Shown here: one piece after another, positions 19,742 through 21,924 of the stretch
Numbering within the stretch: the first letter of the stretch is position 1
Layout: each line of letters starts with the position of its first letter
NCBI RefSeq assembly: GCF_900188335.1
Contig: NZ_FZOY01000001.1
Coordinates: 248,001-312,000 of the forward strand
Direction: 5' to 3'
Origin: Tropicimonas sediminicola
GTDB taxonomy: Bacteria > Pseudomonadota > Alphaproteobacteria > Rhodobacterales > Rhodobacteraceae
Length of the DNA: 64,000 bases
Position numbers and translations under genes: made by a program
Notes under the pieces: generated by a model
Databases searched by the model: none
Told to the model about the DNA's origin: nothing
What the model saw: the letters and a program-made list of their open reading frames with translations, nothing else

Positions 19742-19767
19742 GTGTCCTCCGTTCAGGTTGGTTGGGT

Positions 19768-19861
19768 GAGAGGCTGGACAACGACCCAAGCGGGGCTCGT
19801 TACGGCTGCTTCCTTCCGGACCTGACCGGGTTGGCGAGGCGCCTGCCCGCGCCAACCTCTC
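19768..19861 (-). ncRNA. ffs: Signal recognition particle RNA (4.5S type)
   Basis: The minus strand carries the invariant core GGTCAGGTCCGGAAGGAAGC plus AGCC, which includes the GGAA tetraloop and the Ffh-binding internal loops. The ends pair: GAGAGGTTGG at the 5' side with CCAGCCTCTC at the 3' side, giving a ~94-nt RNA of normal bacterial size. It binds Ffh to target nascent membrane proteins to FtsY. A promoter lies just upstream and no terminator follows. Confidence 0.95.
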
Positions 19862-20106: not shown

Positions 20107-20862
20107 TCAGAATCCGGAGGCGGCGGCGATGGAGCGGCGGGCGAAGCGGGCGTCGTCGGCGGGGTTGTCGTGCTCCATGACGAGAAAGCGCGCACCGGCC
20201 GCCTCGACCTCGGGCAGGATCCGCCGCCAGTCGAGAATGCCGTCGCCGACATCGGCCCAGCCGTCCTCCCCGGCGTTCTCGCCCTCGGGCGCGATGTCCT
20301 TGACGTGGACGGCGACGATCCGGTCGGCGTATTTGCGGAGCCAGTGCACCGGGTCCTGCCCGGCGCGCGCGACCCAGGCGATATCGAGTTCGAGCGCGAG
20401 ATCGTCGGAGCCGGCGAGGATCAGGTCCAGCGGCGTCTCGGCGCTGTCGGTCTCGGCGAATTCGAAGGCGTGGTTGTGCCAGCCGAAGGCGACGCCCGCC
20501 TCCCGCAGCCGCGCGCCGGAGAGCGCCAGCACCCGGCCCAGTTCGGCCCAGCCTTCGGCGGTCTTCTCCTGCTCGTCCTCGGGGAGCGCGGGGACGAACA
20601 CCGCTTCCATGTCGAGCGCGCGGGCGATCTCGATCACGCGGTCGGGCCGGGCGGAGACCATCTCGAGCGAGACATGAGCGGTGGGCATGGTGAGGCCGGC
20701 CGCGGCCAGCGCGTCGCGAAGCTGGCCCGGGTCTTCGAGGCCGGCAAACAGGGCGGGGTCGCCCTCCACCTGTCTGTAGCCGAGCCCCGCGAGCATCCTG
20801 AGAGTGTCCGGCAGCGGGCCGAACTTGCGCGAGGAATGAAGCTGATAGGAGAAGTCACGCAT
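20107..20862 (-). CDS. Sugar phosphate isomerase/epimerase-like TIM barrel
   Basis: A 251-residue AP-endonuclease-2/xylose-isomerase-like TIM barrel. Signature segments are LHSSRKFGPL near the N-terminus, GYRQVEGDPALF, FGWHNHAFEF (metal-binding His, about 130), LALELDIAWVARAG and VAVHVKDIAPEG, giving the metal-binding Glu/Asp/His set of the family. The frame continues to 20967, but ATG 20862 (MRDFSYQLHSSRK) with AAAGGA upstream matches the family start. Substrate is not predictable; inositol or sugar catabolism is typical. The ~200-base leader is exceptional: it carries three strong hairpins with CCTCC motifs behind a stress-type promoter. Confidence 0.85.
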   Translation of the reverse strand: MRDFSYQLHSSRKFGPLPDTLRMLAGLGYRQVEGDPALFAGLEDPGQLRDALAAAGLTMPTAHVSLEMVSARPDRVIEIARALDMEAVFVPALPEDEQEKTAEGWAELGRVLALSGARLREAGVAFGWHNHAFEFAETDSAETPLDLILAGSDDLALELDIAWVARAGQDPVHWLRKYADRIVAVHVKDIAPEGENAGEDGWADVGDGILDWRRILPEVEAAGARFLVMEHDNPADDARFARRSIAAASGF

Positions 20863-20919
20863 CTGCTGGATCCTTTGCTTGAGGGATTGGCCCCGCGGTG
20901 GACGATGTGGTCTTGCCGC

Positions 20920-21046
20920 GCCGCATCGGTGCCGGGGCAGGAGGCCCGATGCGGCGAGCAGCAGCAAGGGCCTGATCCCGGAGGCCCTTGCTGCGCGTCG
21001 CGTCGTGTCAGGCCCCGCGCGGCACGGGGGGAGGAGGTTGCCGCGC
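20920..21046 (-). ncRNA. Structured leader or sRNA with three anti-SD hairpins (CcsR/cuckoo-like)
   Basis: On the minus strand three perfect stem-loops follow one another. Hairpin 1 (21046-21017) has an 8-bp stem GCGCGGCA/TGCCGCGC and loop ACCTCCTCCCCCCG, exposing CCTCCTCCC. Hairpin 2 (20994-20961) has a 13-bp stem GCAGCAAGGGCCT/AGGCCCTTGCTGC, with CCTCC at the loop edge. Hairpin 3 (20955-20920) has a 10-bp stem GCCGCATCGG/CCGATGCGGC and CCTCC in the loop. CCTCCTCCC complements Shine-Dalgarno sequences and defines the CcsR/'cuckoo' sRNAs of Rhodobacter and relatives. No U-tract follows, so it may be the 5' leader of the TIM-barrel mRNA rather than a free sRNA. Confidence 0.6.
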
Positions 21047-21258
21047 GAGGCAAAGTGTTAACGCCCCGGTTGCAAAGTTGTTCCCGCGGTTCGGCGACAG
21101 TTTCGAGGGAATGCCGGGAGTTGTTTCCAGCCCAATGCTTTATGGCCGAATCCGGCACCGTTGCGGCTTGAACAAGGCTCGAAAGCTCCCGACCTCCGCC
21201 ACAAACCGGCCCCAGTCCTTCACTAGCGTCAAAGTTGTGTAAAGTATGGAGTAGCGCC
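21047..21258. other. Divergent gap before the two-helix protein gene
   Basis: Apart from the minus-strand stress-type promoter, about 200 bases hold no gene. For the plus-strand gene at 21259 a weak -10 (TAAAGT, 21240-21245) is seen without a good -35. Confidence 0.5.
21060..21084 (-). promoter_or_regulatory. Stress-sigma-type promoter (GGAAC-N16-CGTT)
   Basis: Minus strand GGAAC (21084-21080), exactly 16 bases, then CGTT (21063-21060). This is the pattern of EcfG-type general-stress promoters, and resembles GGAA-type -35 elements reported for RpoHII in Rhodobacter. Transcription would begin just before hairpin 1 of the structured RNA. Confidence 0.5.
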
Positions 21259-21924
21259 GTGACGATCGAGCAGACCAAGGAGAACCAGCCGGATCAGGCT
21301 GCACAGCAGTTCACCGCCCCCAGCCGGGCGACGCGTAGCACGAGCCGGATGCTGGCCATCCCGATGCTCGGCCTCGGCGCCGCGAGCTGCGTCGCCGTCG
21401 AATTCGTCGAGGCGCTCGCGCCAGACCTCGCCGCCCTGCCGCTGATTGCCGGTCCGGCGCTGGCGCTTGCCGGCCTGCTGCTTCTGCTGCGCAGCCAGGT
21501 GAGCGAGGCCCGCGCCGCGAAGGCCCGCCGGATGTCCTGCCAGCGCATTGCCCCCTACCGCCCGGTCATGGCCGATGGCTCGAACGGCGTCGCCGCGCTG
21601 AACGCGGTGCTCTCGCCGGCCGGCGAACGGCACAGCGCGCCGCCGCGCCGCGCCAACGTCGCCCGCGCCCGCGCCGTCGCCCGTGCCTCCAACGCCCCGC
21701 TCGAAACCCATTATGGCAGCAATGTCCGCCTGTTCCCGCCGGCGCCGCATCGCGCCGAGGCGCAGCCGGAGCCGGCCGCGACCCGCAGCCGGACGCCCTC
21801 CGCCTCGCTGGCCAACGCGGTCCACTTCGGCAACAACTGGGCGCAGGACGTGGACCTGTCGCCGCGCGCCAAGGCCCGTCTGGAGGCCGACCCCTTCGTC
21901 AAGCGGCTGGCCCGGATCAGCTGA
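21259..21924 (+). CDS. Hypothetical protein with two membrane helices
   Basis: A 221-residue protein starting at GTG 21259 (GGAG upstream); an in-frame TTG at 21235 lacks a site. Two hydrophobic segments (about 31-50 and 57-77, LIAGPALALAGLLLLL) form a hairpin anchor. The rest is a basic, Ala/Arg/Pro-rich cytoplasmic tail ending in DVDLSPRAKARLEADPFVKRLARIS. No known domain is recognised; length and layout resemble small membrane proteins conserved only within the order. It is monocistronic: a strong terminator follows and the neighbour mipZ is convergent. Confidence 0.75.
   Translation: MTIEQTKENQPDQAAQQFTAPSRATRSTSRMLAIPMLGLGAASCVAVEFVEALAPDLAALPLIAGPALALAGLLLLLRSQVSEARAAKARRMSCQRIAPYRPVMADGSNGVAALNAVLSPAGERHSAPPRRANVARARAVARASNAPLETHYGSNVRLFPPAPHRAEAQPEPAATRSRTPSASLANAVHFGNNWAQDVDLSPRAKARLEADPFVKRLARIS

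Follow-up and report, generated by a model that had tools for sequence, protein, structure and literature searches.

The minus strand of the window, by which we mean the whole 64,000-nucleotide stretch of Tropicimonas sediminicola DNA analysed here, carries three strong hairpins in a row between a promoter-like element and the gene of a xylose isomerase-like protein, and this array is far above chance. We tentatively propose, and give it somewhat less than an even chance, that an EcfG-driven isomerase mRNA carries here a leader that may act like an anti-Shine-Dalgarno (anti-SD) RNA, mainly via its first hairpin. The features on which this proposal draws are the following, in window positions:

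21060..21084, minus strand: candidate promoter of the EcfG (general stress response) type, a match to the pattern GGAAC-N16-CGTT
21056..21065, minus strand: GGCGTTAACA, one base off GCGCTAACA, an element upstream of cuckoo hairpins in the same genus; it overlaps the -10
20919-21051, minus strand: three-hairpin array, with hairpins of 13, 13 and 11 pairs
21012..21051, minus strand: hairpin 1, 13 pairs, 14-nt loop ACCTCCTCCCCCCG with the anti-SD sequence exposed
21037-21029, minus strand: CCTCCTCCC in the loop of hairpin 1
20961..20994, minus strand: hairpin 2, 13 pairs, CCTCC at the loop edge with its first three bases paired
20919..20956, minus strand: hairpin 3, 11 pairs plus a 3-pair inner stem past a bulge, the first two bases of CCTCC paired
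20107..20862, minus strand: xylose isomerase-like TIM-barrel protein (PF01261), downstream of the array
21259..21924, plus strand: divergent gene with a GTG start and no Pfam or NCBIfam family
20884..21175: stretch in which blastn (E up to 1e-3) finds no similarity to 18 relatives' loci, 8 of them from the same genus

The original prediction had described a stress-type promoter match followed within about 15 bases by perfect stems of 8, 13 and 10 bp. As a whole this observation is confirmed with corrected stem lengths: all three stems are strong and the 13 pairs of hairpin 2 stand, while hairpin 1 has 13 pairs and hairpin 3 has 11 in addition to its three inner ones. Hairpin 1 begins 8 nt after CGTT, its foot thus lying about 8-9 nt past the promoter match. 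Its stem comprises 12 Watson-Crick pairs and one G-U pair, the nine loop-proximal pairs being uninterrupted Watson-Crick, and the computed energies of hairpins 1, 2 and 3, whose stems differ in sequence, are -26.5, -26.1 and -27.4 kcal/mol. In the computed fold the whole CCUCCUCCC is exposed by hairpin 1 only, as had been expected for the first loop, with an unpaired probability of 0.60 at the first base and of 0.97-1.00 at the remaining eight. The CCUCC of hairpin 2 indeed sits at the loop edge with the last two of its five bases free, and the claim that the third loop exposes this motif holds for its last three bases, the first two being paired. The complementary strand has the same inverted repeats with GGAG-type loops, and GGAGG-type loop sequences are bound by RNA-binding proteins such as CsrA. 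That the functional RNA is the plus strand, either as the ligand of such a protein or as the leader of the plus-strand gene, is nevertheless most improbable, given that the GGAAC-CGTT site points the opposite way and that no sigma-70-type site was found on either strand between 20700 and 21400.

The 396-nt intergenic stretch holds three hairpins of at least 11 pairs. Among 2000 dinucleotide shuffles 1958 contained none and 42 contained one, and not a single shuffle contained two; the fold z-score is -4.49, with 0 of 200 shuffles as stable. We then compared the array with 304 non-cuckoo loci (1,359,080 bases), a non-random set that excludes cuckoo loci along with any copies of the window place and in which several loci had been chosen for CCTCC or promoter patterns. 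The array is the only cluster of three hairpins within 160 nt in this set, and CCTCC lies at the loop in 7 of the 440 other strand-hairpins as compared to all three hairpins of the array. In a wider, overlapping set of loci of at least 1.5 kb (1.39 Mb), in which the array place is represented eight times since seven loci and the window overlap there, three-hairpin clusters occur at the array and at two further loci, L280 and L268, both of which had been picked as CCTCCTCCC pairs. Throughout the genome there are 92 matches to CCTCCTCCC, of which 14 lie in a cuckoo region on contig C25 (see below) and one in the array. At the other 77, all examined, the best Watson-Crick stems have nine pairs (one site), seven (two sites) or at most six (74 sites). 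Hairpin 1, with 12, outdoes them all, which argues for an anti-SD function of the leader.

The GGAAC-N15-18-CGTT pattern occurs only once in the window, at 21084-21060 on the minus strand. Genome-wide, GGAAC-N16-17-CGTT has 103 sites compared to 71 for a reversed control pattern, so that about as many matches as in the control (71 of 103) must be chance. The genome possesses a general stress response (GSR) island (G000:C11:122300-155528, L291 and L292, 33 kb around nepR) with genes for PhyR, NepR and a sigma factor of the ECF type. NCBIfam labels the latter only as 'RNA polymerase sigma factor', and we call it EcfG-like because it is placed beside NepR and PhyR, both of which adjoin one another there. 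This island holds 15 GGAAC-N16-17-CGTT sites, several of them immediately upstream of open reading frames (ORFs), and 11 of the 15 have the 16-nt spacing of the array promoter match. NepR scores above the cut-off in four of nine same-genus genomes, and in the genome under study the GSR genes are on contig C11 and the array is on C17. As given in excerpts of a report on S. meliloti (PMC6180224), the promoters that are listed under RpoE2, the GSR sigma factor, show the same -35/-10 pattern, seven sRNAs of unknown impact are activated by RpoE2, and one 5'-RACE start lies, by our own reading, 9 nt after CGTT. The stress-type promoter of the original prediction is hence plausible, since PhyR, NepR and an EcfG-like sigma factor are all encoded in the genome and sites that fit the pattern are clustered in it. 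Judged by position, spacing and the location of the foot at the expected start, a putative EcfG-type transcription start at the foot of hairpin 1 is plausible as well. The promoter pattern combined with CCTCCTCC was considered as a family-wide signature and discarded as it shows no enrichment: matches occur in 11 of 295 genomes of the family, and the reversed control yields more hits. A looser combination of the promoter with CCTCC also gave fewer matches than its reversed control in the genus.

On one side the array is adjoined by the TIM-barrel gene, whose predicted start at 20862 fits the ORF, and on the other by the family-less divergent gene, followed by mipZ. Of the eight other same-genus mipZ loci, six also contain the divergent gene, which in four of them directly adjoins mipZ. 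Upstream of this plus-strand gene, GGCCGGTTTGTGGC (minus-strand reading, about 21190-21225) recurs by eye in slightly changed form in six same-genus loci. A consensus scan of 20700-21400 found no terminator between array and isomerase gene, in line with what had been predicted; the single terminator-like site in this range (21301-21286, minus strand) lies upstream of the array. The further proposal of a cis-acting leader that controls the isomerase gene is not supported by the computed accessibility of the ribosome-binding site, which is barely altered by the hairpins (0.40 versus 0.42, 0.47 versus 0.55 and 0.39 versus 0.35 for three 3' ends). Pairing of the hairpin 1 loop with this site is weak (-4.2 kcal/mol, compared to -11.7 for an ideal Shine-Dalgarno sequence), and the loops of hairpins 2 and 3, both partly paired in the fold, reach -8.0 and -7.1 kcal/mol. 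The absence of an obvious translational switch is consistent with the main rival to an anti-SD leader, namely a plain protective one: a stress-induced isomerase mRNA whose structured 5' leader shields it against RNases, with incidental C-rich loops and no action in trans. We regard this as rather unlikely. The high stability of all three stems and the partial burial of CCUCC in hairpins 2 and 3 would fit such a leader, but the placement of CCTCC at the loop in every hairpin of the array, rare in the other strand-hairpins, speaks against it. A conserved isomerase leader was also considered and rejected. Among 80 relatives' isomerase loci, of which the closest listed belongs to Tropicimonas marinistellae (76%), hairpins of at least 11 pairs are absent from 73; six contain one and one contains two. 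The stretch examined was the 400 nt preceding the isomerase match, of which four loci offer less, and none of the 80 has a CCTCC-loop hairpin there.

Similarity to the relatives' loci ends at 20883 and returns at about 21176, and the array lies inside these roughly 300 bp. Based on these comparisons the array appears to be in a segment specific to its own lineage among the genomes compared. A DNA search of 120 genomes gave matches in six including the array's own; those in the other five cover 24-49 bases, and the second match in the own genome covers 47 bases at 84%. When the central 300 bases of the six short-match places were inspected, a hairpin with at least 11 pairs turned up in the own-genome one only, and these short matches were judged to be chance. 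With a single-sequence covariance model the best match outside the array in 30 genomes has an E-value of 0.12 and lies in DNA that looks coding by eye. The promoter plus CCTCC pattern matches 59 places in nine same-genus genomes, two of which are the array; the remaining 57 loci, with 58 distinct combinations, show no stem of at least seven Watson-Crick pairs and three with six. By DNA, single-sequence model and promoter-pattern searches no relative of the array was thus found in the eight other same-genus genomes. The conservation of stems and CCTCC loops in close relatives on which the original prediction had staked itself is therefore not borne out, and covariation cannot be shown. The array could also be a palindrome cluster that acts at the DNA level or is not transcribed at all, for example a rearrangement remnant at a junction, next to a promoter match that arose by chance. 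Its location in a segment that differs from the relatives and the many chance matches to the promoter pattern would agree with this, but we consider it very improbable: the three stems differ in sequence, the sole other match in the genome, given above, is not that of a dispersed repeat, and searches of plasmid and phage records returned one 26-base match and none, respectively.

In three other genomes the isomerase and mipZ genes are 8.6 kb (G001), 15.1 kb (G002) and 8.6 kb (G007) apart, and in G006 the isomerase gene is absent from the mipZ locus. Between the plus-strand gene and the isomerase gene, G002 has genes for a glycoside hydrolase 2-type protein, an ABC ATPase, two permeases and a solute-binding protein, together with a regulator-like ORF that has no Pfam family at E 1e-10. 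We infer that a sugar-transport operon such as that of G002 has been lost at the array locus. The isomerase gene may then be a recent member of the stress regulon that gained a GSR promoter and an anti-SD leader, convergent on the ar14/CcsR design, so that a single transcript would make an enzyme and silence other mRNAs, with a relative keeping the sugar-transport operon that ends in the isomerase gene. This evolutionary scenario is doubtful.

The three-hairpin anti-SD layout noticed at the outset is the one published for ar14/NfeR1 (RF02344, Rhizobiales), which, as far as the excerpts of PMC10746234 go, likewise combines three hairpins with anti-SD loops and stems of unrelated sequence. In contrast to the array with its one intact motif, ar14 has one and the same CCUCCUCCC in each of its three loops, and it is a trans-acting sRNA whereas the array is apparently an mRNA leader. 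The NfeR1 loops silence ntrB at its ribosome-binding site (PMC10746234, in excerpt). On the array the Rfam ar14 model scores 17.2 bits (E 0.3) compared to a gathering score of 58.8; of the eight matches in a relaxed Rfam scan ar14 is second by E-value. The first, mir-1538 (plus strand, E 0.0012), is in our view a coincidental match to the long hairpin 2 stem. The sole Rfam match at gathering score is a small bacterial SRP RNA at window positions 19765-19861 on the minus strand (RF00169, 56.6 bits). With GsrN of Caulobacter and GsrN-like RNAs the array shares a GSR-type promoter in a GSR-bearing genome, as judged from sequence, and an exposed C-rich loop near the 5' end in the computed fold with the assumed start. 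GsrN is a separate sRNA, unlike the array, which precedes an ORF and is on another contig than ecfG, nepR and phyR. Proximity to the GSR genes is typical of predicted gsrN genes, C. crescentus being an exception, and the GSR-dependent GsrN acts via its C-rich 5' loop, there activating katG (PMC5869019, in excerpt).

Starting from the observed sequence, computed folds, GSR genes and promoter context, an anti-SD leader could work as follows. Upon general stress, RNA polymerase carrying the EcfG-like sigma factor would start at about 21052-21051 on the minus strand, the foot of hairpin 1, and the first ~135 nt of the predicted transcript would fold into three very stable hairpins before it continues into the isomerase gene. 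By analogy to NfeR1 and GsrN, the exposed CCUCCUCCC loop of hairpin 1 may pair in trans with G-rich Shine-Dalgarno regions, which would, as with NfeR1, lower the translation of the putative target mRNAs. The other two hairpins would chiefly protect the 5' end and offer weaker seeds, and the leader might work either as part of the mRNA or once it has been cut off ahead of the ribosome-binding site. This reading is suggested by the triple hairpin above chance, the accessible loop 1, the spacing of 16 and the presence of the GSR genes, and by a foot 9 nt past CGTT that matches the one S. meliloti start (PMC6180224, in excerpt). It is weakened by the lack of relatives, by two of three loops that are partly paired and do not have the full motif, by the missing enrichment of the promoter with CCTCCTCC, by the many chance promoter matches and because no terminator was found. 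A GSR-driven anti-SD hairpin array was not found in the literature on EcfG/RpoE2 sRNAs and cuckoo/CcsR RNAs, of which our coverage is partial and leaves absence unproven. If correct, the proposal would link the alphaproteobacterial general stress response to anti-SD silencing outside the known DUF1127-cuckoo operons. It would also imply that mRNA leaders can newly evolve an anti-SD design with several hairpins, and make the array a compact case for how few intact loops an anti-SD RNA needs.

The array had been assigned to the CcsR/cuckoo RNAs (CcsR1-4, CIN1 loci of Rhodobacter), with which it shares tandem strong hairpins, at least two being characteristic, CCUCC loops and a link to a stress promoter. 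According to excerpts of PMC10253847 and PMC8307010, the CcsR RNAs are encoded behind the DUF1127 gene ccaF1, RNase E releases them from its transcript, and they have an RpoHI/RpoHII promoter and a terminator. In contrast, CCUCCUCCC, expected in each cuckoo loop, is intact in one of three array loops, the frequently associated DUF1127 gene does not adjoin the array, and no 3' Rho-independent terminator was found in the 20700-21400 scan. The genome has a CcsR/cuckoo-type locus of its own elsewhere:

C25:53132-53990: DUF1127 gene (Pfam) with hairpin pairs

There the DUF1127 gene is followed by six CCTCCTCCC loop pairs and a T-rich end, and most of these pairs are clear hairpins whose loop reads TCCTCCTCCCT; two further ORFs, DUF1127-like by eye, are each followed by two hairpins. 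Rfam gives no match at this locus at gathering score, and no GGAAC-CGTT site lies there among the matches listed. The arrangement CCTCCTCCC-N15-45-CCTCCTCCC is present in 27 of 60 relatives and in all nine same-genus genomes.

To quantify membership we used a cuckoo covariance model built from 48 hairpins of the own genome and relatives at one loop offset, with about 72 rows left out as duplicates or for another offset; 12 of its 13 pairs show changes at both bases. At C25 the model finds 15 matches on the minus strand, which score 20.2-58.6 bits and include some training sequences; it does not recover the weak hairpin at C25:53752-53720. Hairpin 1 scores 15.9 bits (E 0.28), the best for the array region on the minus strand and fourth in a chance-level list in which the three higher matches lie at two other places. 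Hairpin 2 scores 13.0 bits on the minus strand (E 1.3) and 14.6 bits on the plus strand, and hairpin 3 has no minus-strand match at E up to 10. Window and genome were searched with different filter settings, and the model depends heavily on the sequence of the stems; in the case of the SmelA075 family, which is related and has variable stems, a covariance model is described as inadequate (PMC3927594, in excerpt), and this makes our test a strict one. By this model the array does not qualify as a cuckoo member. Of the first interpretation, the stress promoter, the three-hairpin anti-SD layout and the lack of a terminator thus stand, and cuckoo/CcsR membership and conservation do not.

The array might still be a true CcsR/cuckoo or ar14 member that has diverged, has no DUF1127 partner and is now under GSR control. 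The restriction of other three-hairpin clusters to the CCTCCTCCC-pair loci L280 and L268, the rank of ar14 in the relaxed Rfam scan and the resemblance of GGCGTTAACA to the cuckoo-upstream element would point in this direction, but the low score of hairpin 1 relative to the C25 matches, the single intact loop and the missing DUF1127 neighbour and terminator render it improbable. The upstream element, in the form GCGCTAAC, precedes the first CCTCCTCCC in all nine same-genus cuckoo loci (L278-L286) and is paired 21-22 nt apart in seven of them. Outside cuckoo loci GCGYTAACA occurs in six distinct contexts in the 1.42 Mb examined, the array included. The likeness of GGCGTTAACA, noticed after the fact, proves little on its own because at two other places of the window GGCGCTAACA occurs exactly (44136, minus strand; 57705, plus strand), and neither has a CCTCC hairpin listed within 1 kb. 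On the contig of the array, the region around G000:C17:491890 (L314, 186-224) has a single cuckoo-type hairpin with the loop GTCCTCCTCCCTG, followed by a terminator-like hairpin. It scores 21.5 bits with the cuckoo model and is flanked by the ends of ORFs that we take to encode phasin and PhaR.
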